Virus record (IMG/VR): IMGVR_UViG_3300033145_000449
Coordinates: 1 to 30,337 of that record
Direction: 5' to 3' (one strand)
Source: a virus
DNA length: 30,337 nt
Made by a program: the position numbers and the translations under genes. Below are positions 1,602-30,337 of the stretch, one piece after another. Position 1 is the stretch's first letter. Each line of letters starts with the position of its first letter. The notes beneath the pieces were generated by a model that was given only the letters and a program-made list of their open reading frames with translations, was not told the DNA's origin and ran no database searches.

Positions 1602-1607
1602 ATATTT

Positions 1608-1663
1608 TTATCTTAACTCACTAATAAAATCCTTTTATTTTATTTCAACTCTGAAATAAAATC
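1608..1663 (-). repeat. Duplicated gene tail with hairpin (tail echo)
   Basis: On the minus strand the last eight codons of the 1640-1873 gene (1663 to 1640) read D-F-I-S-E-L-K-stop. Thirty-two bases on, at 1631-1608, a second stretch reads D-F-I-S-E-L-R-stop. The copies differ at TCA/AGT (Ser), TTG/TTA (Leu) and AAA/AGA (Lys/Arg). Between them AATAAAAT is the inverted complement of the ATTTTATT present in both copies, so a hairpin can form with either. The second stop lies 6 bp before the clamp ATG, the normal gene spacing in this genome. Confidence 0.8.
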
Positions 1664-1873
1664 CTCTAATTCATCTTTATCTTCATCTTCTAAACTATCG
1701 TAAAACTCTTGCCCCTCATCTTCCAAACAAATCCAACTATCTTCATCACTGCACGAGTTAGATTCAGAGAACCAAGTTTTAGATATTTCTAATTCTGTTC
1801 CATCTACATCTAACACAAAGTATTTGGTTATGGAACGATTTGTTGTATCTACACTTATTGTTTTTATTTTCAT
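1640..1873 (-). CDS. Hypothetical small acidic protein
   Basis: A 77-residue frame with a lysine-rich start (MKIKTISVDTTNR) and a strongly acidic C-terminal half full of Asp and Glu (LEDEGQEFYDSLEDEDK). Acidic proteins of this size are often DNA mimics or inhibitors, but nothing here shows that. The promoter at 1921-1948 gives a leader of about 41 bases, and the gene heads the leftward unit that includes the sliding clamp and the HTH gene. Its last codons are repeated after the stop (see 1608-1663). No family recognised. Confidence 0.7.
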   Translation of the reverse strand: MKIKTISVDTTNRSITKYFVLDVDGTELEISKTWFSESNSCSDEDSWICLEDEGQEFYDSLEDEDKDELEDFISELK

Positions 1874-6007: not shown

Positions 6008-6144
6008 CACAAATAACTAAATTTGTCAATATCAACAGGGGGGGGCGTATGGGGACCATTTGTCTTATATTAATATATATACCCCCACCAAATTTTATAC
6101 TATTCTACTATAATGTAATACAATATATATAATAAGAATATCCC

Positions 6145-6182: not shown

Positions 6183-6749
6183 TTGAAAACTCTATCGATA
6201 GAACAAAAGACTGGTTTATTTATGATGCTTGAAAAGAAAGACCTTTATAAGGTCGGACTTGAGTATGAGTTTGATAAACACTATAAGGATGCTAAAGCCG
6301 TAAAGGGGGCGGTTTATCGTATTTATAGTGATGTTAAGAATCACCCCGATAAATATGGTATTCAACCTATTACTTATAATAAAGTTGTGAATGCTATGTC
6401 TTCTAGGTCTATACAAGGAAAGGCGGTTGACCAAAAGGTTAGTTTGAGAGAAGAGTTAGAAGATTTTGATATAAAGAAGATGGTGTTGTCTAATAGAGAT
6501 AAGGCGGCACTTTTGGTAAGTAGGAAATTAGATAGTATTGGTAAGAGTAAGAAGAAGTTAGATGCTATATCTTTACCTCAATTATCTTTAACTCTTTGTC
6601 AGTTGTTTGATAAAGGACAGATAGTTCAGGGTGAGGCTACTGAACATATAGCACATCTTGCTAAGATTGAAGAAGGATTAAGTGCTAAAGATTTATTAGA
6701 AGCTGTTATTACACAGAGGGAATCTACAATAATTAAGAAGAATAAGTAG
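6183..6749 (+). CDS. terS: Terminase small subunit (probable)
   Basis: A 188-residue protein at the head of the late operon, two genes before the large terminase, where the DNA-recognising small subunit usually lies. Residues 1-60 are helical (IEQKTGLFMMLEKKDLYKVG, then AVKGAVYRIYSDVKNHP) and fit a DNA-binding helix-turn-helix. The middle and end are helical (REELEDFDIKKMVLSNRD, AHLAKIEEGLSAKDLLEAVI), as in oligomerising small terminases. The start used is TTG at 6183, directly behind the -10 box; an in-frame ATG at 6222 is the alternative but would remove part of the helical domain. The tail (KKNK) and stop are repeated twice downstream. Confidence 0.6.
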   Translation: MKTLSIEQKTGLFMMLEKKDLYKVGLEYEFDKHYKDAKAVKGAVYRIYSDVKNHPDKYGIQPITYNKVVNAMSSRSIQGKAVDQKVSLREELEDFDIKKMVLSNRDKAALLVSRKLDSIGKSKKKLDAISLPQLSLTLCQLFDKGQIVQGEATEHIAHLAKIEEGLSAKDLLEAVITQRESTIIKKNK

Positions 6750-6821
6750 ATTCTTCTTAATCCTATTATTAAGAAGAATAAATAGATTCTTCTTAATCCT
6801 ATTATTAAGAAGAATAAATAA
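6732..6821 (+). repeat. 36-bp tandem hairpins repeating the terS tail and stop
   Basis: Period 36 bp, 2.4 copies starting at 6732, 6768 and 6804. Each full unit is a perfect 12-bp stem (ATTAAGAAGAAT / ATTCTTCTTAAT) with a 6-base loop, then CCTATT; the last lacks its right arm. Each left arm and loop spells K-K-N-K-stop, as the gene end does: AAG TAG, AAA TAG, AAA TAA in order. As 36 is a multiple of three, reading through the two TAG codons would stay in frame until TAA. The right arms can pair with the left arm on either side. Confidence 0.9.
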
Positions 6822-6838
6822 AATCGACCAAAAAAGAA

Positions 6839-7171
6839 GTGAAGAAGAATTTTGATGTTTTTAAGAAAGAATGTCTTTATTGGCAAAAGAAGTTAGAGTT
6901 GGGTAATTATGATATAGAAATTAAACTTGGCACGGATAAGGATTTCTTTTCTGCTTGGTGTTCTATATATGCAGATTATAATGCTATTGTTTGGATGGAT
7001 GAAACTTATAAGTTTTCTTCTTTACAAGAAGTAAAAGATGCTGCTAAACATGAAATGGTGCATATACTAGTTGGGAGATTAGTAGATAATGCCCGTGCCC
7101 GATATATAAATAAAAATGAAATAGATGAAGCCTTAGAGGAACTTGTAAGAAAATTAACTAAACTAATATGA
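6839..7171 (+). CDS. Putative zinc metalloprotease-like protein (HExxH)
   Basis: A 110-residue frame with a GTG start. It contains a zincin motif, KHEMVHILVGR (His71-Glu72-x-x-His75), preceded by a strand-rich segment (YDIEIKLGTDKDFFSAWCSI, YNAIVWMDETY) and followed by a helical end with acidic residues (NEIDEALEELV) that could supply a third zinc ligand. This arrangement resembles the SprT/WLM-type small metalloproteases, and similar small HExxH proteins are seen next to phage terminase genes. A role in capsid maturation is possible but unproven. It ends in an ATGA overlap with the large terminase gene. Confidence 0.6.
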   Translation: MKKNFDVFKKECLYWQKKLELGNYDIEIKLGTDKDFFSAWCSIYADYNAIVWMDETYKFSSLQEVKDAAKHEMVHILVGRLVDNARARYINKNEIDEALEELVRKLTKLI

Positions 7172-8856
7172 CAACTGAGTTGGATAAAGAAAATACAGCA
7201 TTAGCTGTTGAAGAATCAAGACTTACTGTCTTAAAGAAGAAAGAAATGCTCCGTAGAGAGAGAGTCTTTAAGGAGTATTTGGAATCTGACGTCTATCGGG
7301 ATAAGATAGAGATTAGAGCCAAGATATTTGATGCTTGTCAGGATAATAGGAGAGAGTTCATTCTTTCAAGAGGAAGGGTGTATCAATTATGTTCGGGGCA
7401 AGGTATTCAGAATCCCACTAATAATGATTTGGCGGAAGCATGTATCTTTTTTATAGAGAACTTTGGTTGGACTTTCTCACCCAAGACTGACCCTAAACAT
7501 TTACCTTTTATTCTATTTGATTTTCAGAAGAAGATGATTAAATGGTTAATTGATAAGATAGAGAAAGGAGAGGATGGTTTCTTGGAAAAGTCAAGGGAAA
7601 TGGGTGCCTCATGGATTGTATTTGTGTATGTATCTTTGTGGTATTGGTTATTCAGAGATGGGGCGAATATTCTATTAGGTTCTTATAAGGAAATGTTGGT
7701 AGATGATAAAACTTCAGACAGTTTATTTGGTAAGATAGATTATGCTTTAGAAGCAATGCCTAAATGGTTGATGCCCAGAAAGTTTAATCCAAATAAGCAT
7801 AGAACTAAATTAAGGTTAATGAACCCAGAAAATGGTAATTTAATATCAGGAGATACAATGAACCAAAACTTTGGTAGGGGTTCTCGTAAGACTGCTATTA
7901 TGTTTGATGAGTTAGGATTTTGGGACTATGCGAAAGATGCTTGGGAGGGTGCGGCAGATTCAACTAACTGTCGGATAGCCAACAGTACGCCATGCGGGTA
8001 TAATTTCTATGCTATGTTAAGAGAGTCTGGAATTGACATCCATACAATGCATTGGCAAGACCACCCTTTCAAAGATAATGAATGGTATGAGTATGAGAAG
8101 GAAAGAAGAACAGAAGAGTCTTTGGCTCAAGAGGTGGATATATCCTATTTGAAATCTCTCGAGGGTAGGGTATATCCTGATTGGAATGAAGAGTTTGTTG
8201 AACAGGGTAAATTTGAATATGATTATAATCTACCATTATATGTTGGGTGGGACTTTGGTTTTGATGATGATACTGCTATAATTTGGGCACAACCTAATAA
8301 AGGTAAATTAAGAATTATAGATACTTATAGAAATAATTATAAATTGATAGATTTCTATATTCCTTTTGTTACAGGTATTACTCCATCAGATGCTATTAAG
8401 TATAGTTCTAAAGATTTAGCGAAGATTGCTTCACATAAAACTTGGAAGAAAGGTGTTCATTTCGGCGACCCAGCAGGGAGATTTGGTAATCAAGTAGTAA
8501 ATACAACAGTAGTAGAAGAGTTAAGAAATAGCGGTATAGAGATAAACTTCAAAGATGCTTGGAAACACTTTGATAGAAGAAAGACTGCTTTAAGATTGCT
8601 TATAAGAAATGGTATAGAATTAAATATGAACTCTGATACCAAATACTTTAATCTATGTATGATTAACTCTGCCTATCCGAAAGTTAAACAACATGGAGTA
8701 GATGAGGTTAGGTCAATTAAACCACTACATAATTGGTCTTCGCATTATAGGTCGGCAGCTGAATACATGTCCCTTGGTTTATCAGAACTCCGCCCCACCA
8801 AAAGAACTATTAAAGATAAGATTAAACCACGGGGTAGGGGAAGTGTAAGATATTAA
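7168..8856 (+). CDS. terL: Terminase large subunit
   Basis: A 562-residue packaging ATPase and nuclease. Residues about 141-149 (KSREMGASW) are the Walker A-like motif of this family, AIMFDE (243-248) the Walker B with the catalytic Glu, and NSTP (272-275) the coupling motif. The nuclease domain begins at YVGWDFGFDDDTA, with an acidic residue at 362, and continues with HFGDPAG (Asp434) and further acidic positions. The length is usual for the family. It starts in an ATGA overlap with the previous gene. It acts at the portal to cut and pump DNA into the prohead. Confidence 0.93.
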   Translation: MTTELDKENTALAVEESRLTVLKKKEMLRRERVFKEYLESDVYRDKIEIRAKIFDACQDNRREFILSRGRVYQLCSGQGIQNPTNNDLAEACIFFIENFGWTFSPKTDPKHLPFILFDFQKKMIKWLIDKIEKGEDGFLEKSREMGASWIVFVYVSLWYWLFRDGANILLGSYKEMLVDDKTSDSLFGKIDYALEAMPKWLMPRKFNPNKHRTKLRLMNPENGNLISGDTMNQNFGRGSRKTAIMFDELGFWDYAKDAWEGAADSTNCRIANSTPCGYNFYAMLRESGIDIHTMHWQDHPFKDNEWYEYEKERRTEESLAQEVDISYLKSLEGRVYPDWNEEFVEQGKFEYDYNLPLYVGWDFGFDDDTAIIWAQPNKGKLRIIDTYRNNYKLIDFYIPFVTGITPSDAIKYSSKDLAKIASHKTWKKGVHFGDPAGRFGNQVVNTTVVEELRNSGIEINFKDAWKHFDRRKTALRLLIRNGIELNMNSDTKYFNLCMINSAYPKVKQHGVDEVRSIKPLHNWSSHYRSAAEYMSLGLSELRPTKRTIKDKIKPRGRGSVRY

Positions 8857-11333: not shown

Positions 11334-11648
11334 ATGATATTAAAAAAAATACCAACAGAAGAATTAGAACAAGAACTATTAGAGAGAATAGGAGATTTTG
11401 ATAATCATATCATTGACCCCAAAGCAGAACAGTTGGTCTTAAAAGAATTAAGAAAAGTTGAAGGATTGAGTAATTATTTACAAGGTTTACTTGTCAAAGA
11501 AGTTATTAGAGGATTTGTTGTTGATACAGATAAACAAAGGTGGCACGCAAAAGGGGCACATAATACAATATTTAGATTACAACAAAAATTAAGAAAGCCT
11601 AAAAAGAAAGCAAGCAAAACTAAAATGGAGAATAAAAGATATGCATAA
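11334..11648 (+). CDS. Hypothetical basic protein after the portal
   Basis: A 104-residue frame, 6 bp after the portal stop. It is helical throughout, starting ILKKIPTEELEQELLERIGD and with a strongly basic end (RLQQKLRKPKKKASKTKMEN). The segment YLQGLLVKEVIRGFVVDTDKQ looks like a helix packed against a charged surface. No family recognised; the place between portal and scaffold suggests a head-assembly accessory. Its final 11 bases including the stop are repeated exactly 25 bp downstream. Confidence 0.65.
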   Translation: MILKKIPTEELEQELLERIGDFDNHIIDPKAEQLVLKELRKVEGLSNYLQGLLVKEVIRGFVVDTDKQRWHAKGAHNTIFRLQQKLRKPKKKASKTKMENKRYA

Positions 11649-11673
11649 TTTTTGATTATGCTGATATGCATAA
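11638..11673 (+). repeat. Duplicated gene tail with hairpin (exact copy)
   Basis: GATATGCATAA, the last 11 bases of the 11334-11648 gene including TAA, recurs at 11663-11673. Between the copies TTATGC is the inverted complement of GCATAA. This is the same tail, inverted tail, tail order as at 1608, 6732, 20173 and 20424, but the copy is identical, and it ends 1 bp before the -35 box of the next promoter. Confidence 0.7.
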
Positions 11674-11674
11674 C

Positions 11675-11703
11675 TTGACATTTTGATAGAGATATGATAT
11701 ACT
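11675..11703 (+). promoter_or_regulatory. Strong sigma70-like promoter before the scaffold-capsid genes
   Basis: TTGACA (11675-11680), 17 bp ending TGA, and TATACT (11698-11703), close to consensus with an extended -10. The predicted start is near 11710, giving a leader of about 213 bases, unlike the very short leaders of the other late promoters. Confidence 0.85.
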
Positions 11704-11709
11704 AACAAA

Positions 11710-11922
11710 AGGTGCTAACGTTGATATATACACGAGTTGTGTGTGTAGGGAGTATCGGTCGATATACTCCTTACACAGACCATTTGTGGAGATAAGTTAT
11801 CTTAACATTGGTTACATAAGTTTGCAAACTTAGGTGGACTCAACCACCAAAAAACTACGTGGGCTCAACCACGATATAAAAAGGGAAGTTTTTATTAAAA
11901 AGGGAAGTAATCATAAACTATT
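11710..11922 (+). ncRNA. Highly structured leader RNA before the scaffold gene
   Basis: About 213 non-coding bases with five local hairpins. A 13-bp stem (11743-11755 with 11764-11776, one G-U pair). GATAA-G-TTATC (11791-11801). A perfect 16-bp palindrome TAAGTTTGCAAACTTA (11817-11832). Two sister hairpins: GGTGG-ACTCAA-CCACC (11833-11848) and CGTGG-GCTCAA-CCACG (11858-11873), where the outer pair is swapped G-C to C-G while the CTCAA loop is kept. Then AAAAAGGGAAGT occurs twice (11878-11889 and 11897-11908). No T run follows any stem, so these are not simple terminators. The role is unknown: translational control, message stability or a packaging-type RNA are possible. Confidence 0.6.
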
Positions 11923-12612
11923 ATGGAAACACCTGAAAAGGTAGAGAAGGTAGATGAGAATACCATTACTCTTTCGAAAGAAGAGCATAAAAAATTAGTT
12001 GAAGAAAAAGCTAGTTTATCTCAAGACAAAAGTAATCTTGTCAATGAAATCAAAGAGATTCGTGAGAAGAAATCATTATCAGAAGAACAAGTAAAGGAAC
12101 TTACTTCAAAAGTTGAGGAACTTAAATCTATGGCGGGAGATAATTCCAACATAGACGTTAAGGAACTTGCTGAGAAGACTGTTAAGGAATTTTACAAAAA
12201 GCAACAAACTGAAGCACGTGAAAGTGCAAAGCAGGATGCTATGAGTAAATTCTTATCAGATAATCCTGAATTTTCTCCTGAAAATGATGAATTGGGACTA
12301 AAGAAATCCGCCTTTGAAAAGAAATTAGGTAAATTTAATTTATCTAACCTTTCCAAAGAAGAGGACTTTATATCAGTTTACAACGATGCTCTTAGTTTAA
12401 TGGGTAGTAAAAAAGTAGTTGAAGATAATAGTAATCCTATGGATATACAACCATCTTCAAATGCTAATCCTGCTGAAGCAAAAATTGATTCTCTCAATGC
12501 CAAAGAACTTAAAGTTATTGACCAGTTCATGGGCGGCGACAAAGAAGCATTTTTGAAGAAGAAGGCTAAACATCCAGATTTTATTGATTCTTTGATGACT
12601 TCTGTCAAATAA
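11923..12612 (+). CDS. Capsid scaffold-like protein
   Basis: A 229-residue, highly charged, helical protein lying directly before the capsid genes, as scaffolding proteins do. Residues about 15-75 form a coiled coil (EEHKKLVEEKASLSQDKSNL, EEQVKELTSKVEELKSM). The middle is Lys/Glu-rich with helical segments (AEKTVKEFYKKQQTEARESA) and a Pro/Asn-rich linker (NSNPMDIQPSSNANPAE). The C-terminus is basic with a helix-turn-helix look (GGDKEAFLKKKAKHPDFIDS), the usual coat-binding end of scaffolds. It would be an internal core for prohead assembly, lost on maturation. Its message begins with the structured leader. Confidence 0.75.
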   Translation: METPEKVEKVDENTITLSKEEHKKLVEEKASLSQDKSNLVNEIKEIREKKSLSEEQVKELTSKVEELKSMAGDNSNIDVKELAEKTVKEFYKKQQTEARESAKQDAMSKFLSDNPEFSPENDELGLKKSAFEKKLGKFNLSNLSKEEDFISVYNDALSLMGSKKVVEDNSNPMDIQPSSNANPAEAKIDSLNAKELKVIDQFMGGDKEAFLKKKAKHPDFIDSLMTSVK

Positions 12613-18522: not shown

Positions 18523-18728
18523 TTATGATTGAAAACTTACTAAAAAACAAAACAGTGCTTGGTCGCTTAGAACAAGCAACCTCAAAACGAAAAGCCAAAA
18601 TCAAATCTAAAGAATTGGCTAAATTTTCTATGAAATTTTCAGATTATTGGCATAAGGAAATTTGTATTTTAATTCCAATTATAGTCGTCTGGACTGTTTT
18701 ATTAGTTATGATTTATTTTAAGATATAA
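18519..18728 (+). CDS. Small single-span membrane protein
   Basis: A 69-residue frame with a basic cytoplasmic-looking front (RLEQATSKRKAKIKSKELAK) and one C-terminal membrane segment (about 48-66, ICILIPIIVVWTVLLVMIYF). The gene overlaps the fibre gene by 4 bp; a second in-frame ATG lies 6 bp on. A lysis or entry role is possible; it could be a holin-like or spanin-like part, but no lytic enzyme is seen in the window. The HNH gene begins at its last base. Confidence 0.6.
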   Translation: MIMIENLLKNKTVLGRLEQATSKRKAKIKSKELAKFSMKFSDYWHKEICILIPIIVVWTVLLVMIYFKI

Positions 18729-19216
18729 TGGCAAAAAAATGGATATGTAAAAAATGTGGGAAAGTTGAGTATTTGAAATACAAAACCTTTTGGTATAGAA
18801 AACATATTGGAACTGGTATGTGCCAGAGTTGTTCAAATCTTGGTAAAAGAGGGGGTTTTGCTAAGGGTTGTATCCCTTGGAATAAAGGTTTAATTGGTTT
18901 TTTGGGTGGTGATAAACATTATAACTGGCAGAATAAAAGAGATGAAAGAATTACTAATCATTATTTGAGAAATAATCGTGAAGCCAAGGATTGGAAAAGA
19001 AAAGTATTTGAAAGGGATGGTTTTAAATGTCTTGATTGTGGTTCTAATAAACAATTAAATGCACACCATATTACATCATTTAAAGAAGATGAAAACAGAA
19101 GATTTGAAATTAATAATGGAATTACTATTTGTAGTAAATGTCATAAAAAAACTTATTGCAAAGAAGAACAATTTGAAACAGTATATTATTCATTAATACC
19201 ACAATATCATGGCTAA
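18728..19216 (+). CDS. HNH homing-type endonuclease
   Basis: A 162-residue protein. Zinc-binding pairs Cys7-x2-Cys10 and Cys32-x2-Cys35 lead, followed by GCIPWNKGLIG (NUMOD3-like linker, about 47-57). The HNH nuclease follows at about 90-142: WKRKVFERDGFKCLDCG (Cys101, Cys104), NAHHITSF (His113, His114), NNGITICSKCHKK (Asn129 or Asn130, Cys135, Cys138). All key residues are present, so it is probably active. It overlaps both neighbours (1 bp and 8 bp) and is not part of a virion function; it is a free-standing homing gene as in T4-like phages. Confidence 0.85.
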   Translation: MAKKWICKKCGKVEYLKYKTFWYRKHIGTGMCQSCSNLGKRGGFAKGCIPWNKGLIGFLGGDKHYNWQNKRDERITNHYLRNNREAKDWKRKVFERDGFKCLDCGSNKQLNAHHITSFKEDENRRFEINNGITICSKCHKKTYCKEEQFETVYYSLIPQYHG

Positions 19217-19953: not shown

Positions 19954-20196
19954 CAAAAAGACATTAACAATTTAAAAATATCTATAATGAAGATAGAAAC
20001 AAATTATGAGCACATCTTAGAGGCTTTAGATGATAACAAAGAGCAACACACAGAGATAATGCAGAAAATGGAAGACTGGATAAAGGCTTCTGAAAAGAAA
20101 TTCGCAAGTAAATGGACAGAGAGAGTTTTGGTGTGGGCGGGAATGGCAATCGGTGGAACATTAATAGTAGCATTATTATCGTTGATTATTAAATAA
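19951..20196 (+). CDS. Coiled-coil plus membrane-anchor protein (XhlA-like)
   Basis: An 81-residue protein from ATG at 19951. An N-terminal helix (DINNLKISIMKIETNYEHIL, EQHTEIMQKMEDWIKASEKK) is followed by one membrane segment (about 58-79, VLVWAGMAIGGTLIVALLSL) and a short tail. The layout matches XhlA/holin-associated small proteins of lysis cassettes. A longer frame opening at 19852 overlaps LamG coding bases and is unlikely. The gene's last codons are repeated 43 bp downstream. It forms a pair with the next membrane protein. Confidence 0.65.
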   Translation: MQKDINNLKISIMKIETNYEHILEALDDNKEQHTEIMQKMEDWIKASEKKFASKWTERVLVWAGMAIGGTLIVALLSLIIK

Positions 20197-20239
20197 TGAA
20201 TCAACAATAATTACATTATTAGAATTAATTATTAAGTAA
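20173..20239 (+). repeat. Duplicated gene tail with hairpin (tail echo)
   Basis: The last codons of the 19951-20196 gene read L-L-S-L-I-I-K-stop (20173-20196). A second stretch at 20216-20239 reads L-L-E-L-I-I-K-stop, ending 1 bp before the next ATG. TTG/TTA and AAA/AAG differ silently. Between the copies AATCAAC is the inverted complement of GTTGATT in the first copy, with pairing extendable to 13 positions with one mismatch. Spacing is 43 bp, not a multiple of three. Confidence 0.8.
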
Positions 20240-20240
20240 T

Positions 20241-20438
20241 ATGAAAATTATATCAGAAGAAAATAAAGTTATCCTCCTAAAGAGAATAAAAAGTTTTGGA
20301 TGGAGGATAGGTATGGTGGTAGTTGTAGCAGGACTTAACTTCGTGGCGGCGAACTTAAACCTATTTAATCTACCAACAGAAGTAATAGTAGTAGTATCTT
20401 TGGTTCTTTCAGAGATAACAAAACAACTAAATAAGTAG
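20241..20438 (+). CDS. Small two-span membrane protein, holin-like
   Basis: A 65-residue protein with a basic N-terminus (ENKVILLKRIKSFGWR), a hydrophobic segment (about 23-37, IGMVVVVAGLNFVAA), an Asn/Leu turn (NLNLFNLPTE) and a second hydrophobic segment (about 47-60, VIVVVSLVLSE), ending Lys-rich. Size and layout match class II holins, and the preceding XhlA-like gene supports a lysis cassette, though no endolysin is seen in the window. Its tail QLNK and stop are repeated twice downstream (20453-20496). The start lies 1 bp after the tail copy of the gene before. Confidence 0.6.
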   Translation: MKIISEENKVILLKRIKSFGWRIGMVVVVAGLNFVAANLNLFNLPTEVIVVVSLVLSEITKQLNK

Positions 20439-20496
20439 AAATACTTATTTTGCAACTAAATAAATAGTAATATTTATTTTGCAGTTGAATAAATAA
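20424..20496 (+). repeat. 29-bp tandem hairpins repeating the holin-like gene tail
   Basis: Period 29 bp. Three stretches spell Q-L-N-K-stop: CAA CTA AAT AAG TAG (20424), CAA CTA AAT AAA TAG (20453), CAG TTG AAT AAA TAA (20482). All differences are silent or swap stop codons. The first two are followed by an inverted arm (AAATAAGT / ACTTATTT, then AAATAAAT / ATTTATTT), so the stems change together. The third stop is 3 bp before the next ATG. As 29 is not a multiple of three, each copy is in a different frame. Confidence 0.9.
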
Positions 20497-28400: not shown

Positions 28401-28747
28401 GAATATGGAAAGACTCAGATTCTACTGCTGGGGTGGGTGCAAATATAATGAGATATTTAACAAAGGTGATGATGCCTCCTGTAATTGCTGACCAAATACC
28501 TGGTGGTTTTAATGATAAAGGTGTCCAAGCAGAAGCTGGTTTTAAGCGAGCCATTGGTGAAAAAGAAGGGACACAACAAAGAAATCTAATGCAAGAAATG
28601 TTAAAACATGTAGGGGTTAAAATTCAACCTATAGATGTTGGGATAGCAGAATCAATGCAAGATTGGAATATAAAAAAAGGATTAAGAACGATGTTAAAAG
28701 ACAATACTGTGGTTAAAGATTTCTCTTCTACTTATATTCCTAAATAA
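25421..28747 (+). CDS. Very large internal (ejection) virion protein, LPD38-like end
   Basis: An 1108-residue protein closing the structural block. A charged N-terminus is followed by a Gly-rich hydrophobic stretch (about 128-155, GLAGIVGGLALDIAFDPLTY) that may insert into membrane, then long helical segments (DKRTFEKNFDSFLSQYYMHY, KNLQNTFKGDKKILKQIDSL). From about residue 711 the pattern ILNPATQIRNIVSNRLLNWW, later YSEVTPFIRQLRTSAFGFPF, resembles the large polyvalent protein-associated domain LPD38 of phage ejection proteins. I see no transglycosylase or lytic motif. It likely forms a channel or conduit after DNA entry. Confidence 0.7.
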   Translation: MDIENRFKRIDTIKEQINRRIDTKLGSRLQRLDKRLVQMGVKEPDLDTSYGLYDISVKSGLKPQADKILKAHAGEHPREFWSGGFISDTFDTLNALQYGVVGVLKGKSFNEGVLSRESFTDKDSLGQYGLAGIVGGLALDIAFDPLTYVAPWTILKKVPGLTKGLKATKEWTFGKMATEMVSEGKTYQKLTGGTKIGRHLAEKFKYAFGQDPVYKAMAKQKDISVGIATNKVIKMGQSLHKVPNEELVKKVITKDEFGAFIRKPIKQLQEELSPEDFKQVGESMSFFDTELKKVGREMVDLGLLDKRTFEKNFDSFLSQYYMHYDEVGSKIMASTKAGIKGGRKRLSHEEVIKNYVSHLGDEAKKLHPELYDKMGKLSIKKLEETNPEKFAELAKKGREAMQEVLGGIESPAYLLTKTLTKMIYDVENAKFFQKINKSYGSDIAQEGLKQLPKGNRLDINKAKRIEVGAGIKDINKTIGKEIKNLQNTFKGDKKILKQIDSLDKDVLKMSDDLTDDLGRFISDIKHPIKGVSITARKLGIIPERLNNIANQIKKFTDYDTMLKSKSGIALEKLEMGGDLQRHGYKSMREFFDNVKKPFKKGKEELIDDATKIRGEQLVKLQSKVEKTRDKLSKIKDIDKKSLDNSFIHLEKKINDLRFYKEDLVEDLGKLRLGNLAGKYVPESIYNDLTEMGKITDPNFGQKLMAKFKYGHVILNPATQIRNIVSNRLLNWWKLGIGPWRVDIDLKVIKAMKEGVGNKYIKLATKEGWGIDTMVSQEIRNFADPLQRLSWGKGGLNTGKKILNKFADLYQGSENYAKLSAFIYKVDKGISPAEAWKFAESATFNYSEVTPFIRQLRTSAFGFPFITFTTKATPIAIETAFKAPHRISAIGKVKNTIENQADIKITKRERAAEAPWIKDGFYIKLPHKDSDGRSMYFDLTYILPFGDLMSGEFFQRSVVKQTGTVEPWFLGVAGKSPFINAVKELSRNQDFSGRRIWKDSDSTAGVGANIMRYLTKVMMPPVIADQIPGGFNDKGVQAEAGFKRAIGEKEGTQQRNLMQEMLKHVGVKIQPIDVGIAESMQDWNIKKGLRTMLKDNTVVKDFSSTYIPK

Positions 28748-28750
28748 TCT

Positions 28751-28796
28751 AAAACAGTTATGTTTTATAACTCAAAACAGTTATATTTTATAACCT
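28751..28796 (+). repeat. 23-bp tandem hairpins after the late operon
   Basis: AAAACAGTTAT-x-TTTTATAAC occurs twice in a row (28751-28773, 28774-28796), differing mainly at one loop base. Each holds a 5-bp stem GTTAT / ATAAC. Unlike the other arrays they do not repeat the upstream gene's final codons. They lie between the last late gene and its terminator. Confidence 0.75.
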
Positions 28797-28802
28797 AAAA
28801 TA

Positions 28803-29095: not shown

Positions 29096-29629
29096 TTACT
29101 GATTGAAATTAACGCCAAAACTCTCTGTCTTTTTATGACAATCTCGACATAAGGTTTGACCATTATCTAGATTCCACAATTCTGCACAATTGATTGCTTC
29201 TTGATATGTTTTGATATCATTATCTCCCATTATAGATGAAAAAGATTTTATGTGGTGGGCATTTAATATTATTCTCTCCTTCGTTTCTTTATTCCAACCA
29301 CCTCTTTTATTACACATTTGGCATGTAAAATTGTCTCTAACAAAAATATTCATTCTCCACATTTTATATTCTACCAAACTTTTTACATGTTTGTTTATGG
29401 GGGTTATTCCACCTTTCCAAAATGTGCATTTTTCACCTCTGTGTGCATCACCAATCTTTCTTCTTGCTTCCTCTGAAAACTGTTTTCCTTTATTTGCTTC
29501 ACTAATTTTTCTGCGATGTTCTTCTGACTGTCTCCCTGATTTTTTTCTGTTTGGAAATTTAATCTTACCAATTAAACCCCTATTCCATGGCTTGAATCCT
29601 TTAATGAATTGTCCTTTTTTGTTTCTCAT
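29096..29629 (-). CDS. NUMOD3-HNH homing endonuclease
   Basis: A 177-residue protein. N-terminal GFKPWNRGLIG (about 11-21) is followed by two NUMOD3-type DNA-binding repeats (SEEHRRKISEANKG about 35-48 and SEEARRKIGDAHRG about 52-65). The HNH core is complete: NIFVRDNFTCQMC (Cys103, Cys106), ILNAHHIKSF (His125, His126), LDNGQTLCRDCHKK (Asn156, Cys161, Cys164). A promoter directly upstream gives a leader of about 7 bases. It shares the PWN-x-GLIG segment with the HNH protein at 18728, so the two are probably related. It is a free-standing homing gene. Confidence 0.85.
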   Translation of the reverse strand: MRNKKGQFIKGFKPWNRGLIGKIKFPNRKKSGRQSEEHRRKISEANKGKQFSEEARRKIGDAHRGEKCTFWKGGITPINKHVKSLVEYKMWRMNIFVRDNFTCQMCNKRGGWNKETKERIILNAHHIKSFSSIMGDNDIKTYQEAINCAELWNLDNGQTLCRDCHKKTESFGVNFNQ

Positions 29630-30156: not shown

Positions 30157-30337
30157 TTTATCTCTGTGTAAACTTTATCTCTGTGTAAACTTTATCTCTG
30201 TGTAAACTTTATCTCTGAGTAAACTTTATCTCTGTGTAAACTTTATCTCTGAGTAAACTTTATCTCTGAGTAAACTTTATCTCTGAGTAAACTTTATCTC
30301 TGAGTAAACTTTATCTCTGAGTAAACTTTATCTCTGA
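30157..30337. repeat. 17-bp tandem repeat array, cut by the window edge
   Basis: Ten full units of TTTATCTCTGTGTAAAC or TTTATCTCTGAGTAAAC and an 11-base partial unit run from 30157 to the window end. Units 1, 2, 3 and 5 have GTG, units 4 and 6-10 GAG; otherwise they are identical. As 17 is not a multiple of three the array cannot be one repeated peptide. Direct repeats of this size resemble replication iterons or a set of repressor sites. The half-site GTGTAAAC also occurs in the control region at 5486-5493. The far end of the array is not visible. Confidence 0.95.

Follow-up and report, generated by a model that had tools for sequence, protein, structure and literature searches.

A triplicated gene tail with perfect inverted copies behind a putative terS gene of an uncultured phage is probably a template-switch scar

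The window analysed here, 30,337 bases long, is an entire linear IMG/VR virus record from an uncultured phage, in which a rightward terminase-portal-capsid block starts at 6183. The first gene of this block is named as the small terminase gene (terS) by its position before the large terminase gene (terL) only, and its identity stays putative and unconfirmed, without family, PDB or fold support: its product had no PHROG match and no PDB match, Foldseek gave nothing at E <= 0.001, Pfam gave one sub-threshold, unrelated match only, and the structure model reached pLDDT 73.6 and pTM 0.41. The locus contains the following features.

6183 to 6749, plus strand: putative small terminase gene (terS), 188 aa, ending KKNK-TAG
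6732 to 6743, plus strand: tail arm 1, ATTAAGAAGAAT
6744 to 6749, plus strand: loop AAGTAG, holding the first stop, TAG (6747-6749)
6750 to 6761, plus strand: inverted arm 1, ATTCTTCTTAAT, the perfect complement of the tail arms
6762 to 6767, plus strand: spacer CCTATT, which is the loop in the alternative register
6768 to 6785, plus strand: tail copy 2 with loop AAATAG, holding the second TAG (6783-6785)
6786 to 6797, plus strand: inverted arm 2
6798 to 6803, plus strand: second copy of the spacer CCTATT
6804 to 6821, plus strand: third tail copy; its final TAA (6819-6821) is in no loop
6820 to 6834, plus strand: AAAATCGACCAAAAA, a 15-nt match to the 5' end of an accessory gene at the same place in the relative L023
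6839 to 7171, plus strand: 110-aa gene with a GTG start 17 nt past the TAA and an HExxH motif (HEMVH, by eye)
7168 to 8856, plus strand: large terminase gene, terL (PHROG 2, E 4.2e-22)

Of main interest is the array at 6729-6821, where the gene tail occurs three times at a period of 36 nt with two 12-nt inverted tail copies between. Each 36-nt unit consists of the tail, a 6-nt loop, the 12-nt inverted tail copy and a 6-nt spacer; the tail arms (6732-6743, 6768-6779, 6804-6815) and the inverted arms (6750-6761, 6786-6797) are all perfect 12-mers, and copies 1 and 2 have 94% identity across 36 nt. The frame translates as ...STIIKKNK-stop, ILLNPIIKKNK-stop and again ILLNPIIKKNK-stop, with the in-frame stops TAG, TAG and TAA, which bears out the original prediction of three in-frame tails at a 36-bp period with stops in that order. 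Exact tail/inverted-tail/tail motifs with arms of at least 8 nt were found within the window only at this array, in none of six shuffles and nowhere in 292,830 bases of relatives. An exact search of IMG/VR with the hairpin unit gave no matches, and Rfam gave none in the window.

We examined 24 loci with terS and terL and scored 35 relative terS ends (near-duplicate records included), calling a tail repeat where the direct-repeat score at the stop was at least 11. None of the 35 ends carried one (best direct-repeat score 7.5), and the array is absent from relatives with 55-65% identical TerS. The original prediction had named absence of the arrangement from relatives with the same terS as the result that would speak against it, and this is largely what was found. 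In the closest relatives, L003 and L004 (65% identity in terS, 78% in terL), terS ends in one tail, ATTATTATTAAGAAGAATGAATAG, and terL follows 28 nt behind with no gene between. The terS end of L065 (201-260) has an 8-bp AT-only hairpin over the stop and then a short tail-like piece before terL, possibly a compact form of the same tail/hairpin plan.

Phage pac or cos sites are often found within terS or next to it, and the array, directly behind the putative terS and with repeated inverted arms on the DNA, could be a packaging start site whose inverted repeats are bound by the small terminase. Its absence from relatives with such similar TerS argues against this, as do the similar array far off at 20424 and the putative standing of TerS itself, and we regard a packaging role as very unlikely.

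The relatives also bear on the claim that reading through both TAGs would add two ILLNPIIKKNK units to the TerS C-terminus. Programmed, hairpin-stimulated read-through would agree with a period of 36 that preserves the frame, with TAG used twice before TAA and with structure at and after the stop. However, TAG ends 7 of the 38 window genes and is an ordinary stop, and the portal gene ends in TAG where the aligned end in L003 has TAA. The relatives encode no extension and show no conserved extension frame; their homologues end at, or close to, the first TAG of the window, and no shifted or extended stops were seen among them. No tRNA gene was found in the window, a record that may be incomplete, and in the second array, at 20424, read-through would change the frame because the period there is 29 nt. 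The read-through claim is thus unsupported, and we consider it highly improbable.

The gap between terS and terL is an insertion hotspot in the relatives, varying from overlap to ~4 kb. In L023 an accessory gene lies behind terS; the match of AAAATCGACCAAAAA to its start is 15 nt long, against a longest match of 12 in 300 shuffles, and judged from this match the piece at 6820-6834 is probably a remnant of an older gene. Since AAAATCGACCAAAAA is shared with the L023 accessory-gene start, the array lies at a mosaic junction, and the gene that comes right after it here is another one, of 110 aa. This gene is absent from L003 and L004, has no Pfam match above cut-off and no relative found in viral contigs, and no obvious ribosome-binding site was seen by eye before its GTG at 6839. 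Different small HExxH proteins (motif by eye) occupy the terS-terL slot in the window (6839-7171) and in L023 (9615-9995), with no Pfam family above cut-off.

It had also been proposed that the same plan recurs at other gene ends. By the same threshold, tail repeats occur at 5/38 window gene ends, compared with 1/38 mirrored gene starts, 47/3000 random coding positions and 5/522 gene ends from the relatives (34 contigs). When a single ORF caller was applied to window and relatives alike, the counts were 5/40 and 5/522 (Fisher p 0.0003), two of the five window matches in this comparison being one repeat counted from both strands. Inverted-arm motifs (10 nt, 1 mismatch) lie at four places in the window: three gene ends, namely terS, 20427 and 1663 (minus strand), and 4120, just upstream of the start of a minus-strand gene. 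The expectation is 2 in 10 shuffles for one strand, and 0.26 per window length and strand in the relatives. Looser scans, allowing 1 mismatch in 8 nt or 2 in 10 nt, gave no clear rise over shuffles, the former finding 19 plus-strand places in the window versus 10-17 in shuffles, and the weaker sites do not exceed chance individually. Apart from terS, the sites are as follows.

20424 to 20495, plus strand: a further array where gene 20241-20438 ends, made up of two 29-nt units (9-bp stems; loops GAAA and GTAA) followed by a partial third tail; a clear case
1606 to 1669, minus strand: end of gene 1640-1873(-); the stop lies within the stem of an 11-bp hairpin, and 32 nt on comes a second, diverged tail copy; a good case
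11638 to 11675, plus strand: tail GATATGCATAA, then TTTTTGATTATGCT, the tail again and then a promoter TTGACA; short arms; a weak case
20154 to 20239, plus strand: an imperfect inverted arm separates the copies of a diverged 43-nt tail repeat; fold no better than shuffles; a weak case

The proposal therefore holds for the clear and the good case, is weak at two sites and does not rise above chance at a further gene end, 28744-28800. In the array at 20424, units 1 and 2 differ at three places, which amount to a compensated change in the stem (G-C to A-T) and a loop base whose change retains the GNRA form; when three changes were placed at random, 0.9% of trials ended with a compensated perfect stem. 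For the 65-aa gene at 20241, a first search of viral contigs found no relatives; its one distant homologue (~39-40%) lies in G012, where a TGA/ATG overlap precedes it and the short spacer that follows has no tail repeat. The gene at 1640-1873 was found in 0/16 records, hence the site at 1606-1669 is without an outgroup. The arms at 11638-11675 are not above chance taken alone. At this gene end (11648), L003 and L004 have GATATGCTTGACA; in the window, two tails flanking an inverted piece precede the same TTGACA, so the window shows the derived state relative to L003 and L004.

In a window of low GC (0.34), where short weak cases also turn up in shuffles, the arrays might be plain tandem duplications in an AT-rich spacer with chance palindromes, or artefacts of assembly or amplification; amplification chimaeras can produce inverted joins. 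We find this improbable: it is opposed by the 12-nt perfect arms, by the exact motifs of at least 8 nt that shuffles and relatives lack, and by repeats at several gene ends. The array copies are also not one read error, because they have diverged by substitutions.

As RNA, the array can fold in more than one way. The single hairpins of the tail/arm and arm/tail registers have energies of -10.7 and -10.2 kcal/mol, so the two competing registers that had been proposed are indeed near-equal, but the most stable fold is a third one: a long hairpin of tail 1 with inverted arm 2, enclosing inverted arm 1 and tail 2 (-25.1 kcal/mol, z -4.85, equalled by 0/200 shuffles). Similarly, of the stops said to lie each in a hairpin loop, the two TAGs do so in the tail/arm register only, and the TAA lies 3' of the last arm. 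These folds, together with the perfect stems, the place between two genes, the lack of an obvious ribosome-binding site before the GTG and the compensated pair with GNRA loops at 20424, would fit a selected RNA element, in which stop-codon hairpins shield the terS message, take part in its processing or control how the GTG-started gene is translated. Tail 1 would be opened by a ribosome standing at the first TAG, which would move pairing to the other register, and the untranslated message would take the long hairpin. Yet none of the 35 relative terS ends has the repeat, and conservation with compensatory change is not seen among relatives, the one compensated pair being found only between the 20424 units; such pairs are also produced by template-switch correction. 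A group-wide excess of hairpins at gene ends was rejected, arms of at least 8 nt being found at 12/420 gene ends versus 50/1620 random positions. The array is moreover without a terminator-like site. Overall, we consider a selected RNA element rather unlikely. An intrinsic terminator was rejected as a candidate at 6729-6821 by a test for a G+C-rich stem followed by a T run; the array shares with intrinsic terminators and intergenic mRNA hairpins a hairpin at a gene end, but its stem is AT-rich and no T run follows.

We favor a different origin, and think it probable that the terS-end array is the scar of a replication template switch at the gene end, later doubled by slippage. During copying of the terS tail, the nascent strand would have folded back at its 3' end, or crossed to the other strand, and ~12 nt of the tail would have been copied as reverse complement before the strand returned to its own template slightly upstream of the point of exit. 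One such event would yield both the hairpin and a re-copied tail, stop codon included, and ordinary slippage would afterwards have doubled the 36-nt unit. Because a return upstream of the exit point re-copies the tail, the terS end would stay intact and the upstream context of the following sequence would be kept; with both neighbors whole, the insertion would be near neutral. Near neutrality would in turn explain the survival of such marks at gene ends.

This account draws on the array anatomy, the absence in relatives, the junction trace and the fit of a single four-point event; the order of events, the polymerase step and the near neutrality we infer. It is also favored by the compensated pair at 20424, the derived state at 11648 and the excess of tail repeats at window gene ends over those of the relatives. 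The fit was obtained with a single switch-and-return on a short flank-joined proxy ancestor (the nearest relative being 78% identical, in terL), compared with eight shuffled inserts per site. With switch-and-return, the edits fell from 36 to 5 at the first terS unit (11-15 for shuffled inserts), and at the 20424 unit they fell from 29 to 4 (9-15 for shuffled inserts); at both sites one four-point event thus does far better than chance. Both also hold a reverse-complement copy of adjacent sequence, a perfect arm of 12 nt at terS and an arm of 9 nt at 20424, and an ancestral state without the insertion, represented by the proxy, agrees with the 35 relative terS ends free of tail repeats. The three bases CCT of the spacer are not explained by the tail; their sole local inverted match is AGGATTAAG, ~60 nt upstream. 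A later function is compatible with a template-switch origin, and selection might keep the perfect stems.

The array resembles template-switch or quasipalindrome-associated mutagenesis in its one-event inverted copy of nearby sequence, perfect stem, compensated pairs and GNRA loops. It differs in that the return point is upstream, so that the gene tail is duplicated too, in the later doubling of the unit and in the occurrence at several gene ends of one genome. One paper describes template switches as making perfect stems in one event and correcting them, with GNRA loops enriched at the corrections (PMC8794818), and another traces the proposal of such a process for bacteriophages to Ripley 1982 and also cites Schultz and Drake 2008 (PMC8604942). 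Slipped-strand tandem duplication accounts for the doubling of the 36-nt and 29-nt units but alone cannot create the inverted arm. In the literature searches made, no listed paper described arrays of the tail/hairpin/tail kind where phage genes end. The best account is a template-switch scar, retained through its duplication of the gene tail, as one form of a process that phages have long been known to show.

Promoter-early stem-loop (PeSL) elements are mobile cassettes of T4-type phages, and they too place hairpins between genes at gene-exchange sites. Here, in contrast, no sequence is common to the sites, the arms are made from each gene's own tail, and the terS array is without a promoter. 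One could also imagine that the phage repeatedly builds gene-end modules from the tail of each gene (tail, inverted tail, tail) and keeps them as RNA hairpins that switch register and so uncouple a downstream gene, newly arrived, from its neighbor. We give this idea little credence; if true, such modules would provide RNA spacers at gene-exchange sites whatever the sequence of the gene.

If the template-switch account is right, the array would be a clean natural example, from a DNA phage, of a perfect hairpin created by a single copying error that leaves the genes on either side intact. It suggests that intergenic hairpins can arise at once and without selection, and it advises caution against reading repeated in-frame stops in hairpins as recoding. 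The clustering at gene ends of one genome would make the retention filter, neutral through the duplicated tail, testable by population sequencing.

Several other features of the window may be recorded. Before terS, the non-coding stretch 6038-6110 has a G-run (GGGGGGGCGTATGGGG) and a C-run, and the matching place in L019 has G-runs and a direct repeat of ~45 nt. At 11675-11922, a promoter-like TTGACA-17-TATACT and a structured leader precede the gene at 11923, with hairpins around GGACTCAACC and two AAAAAGGGAAGT boxes. This leader recurs in L003, L023, L007 and L065 and partly in L016; in an alignment of six sequences, one row partial, 7/27 predicted pairs change on both sides, and the covariation term is weak (+1.34). 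Two HNH endonuclease genes, at 18728-19216 and 29096-29629(-), the second with NUMOD3, are possibly homing endonucleases. Finally, a 17-nt tandem array of TTTATCTCTGAGTAAAC at 30157-30337 comprises 10.6 copies and reaches the contig end.
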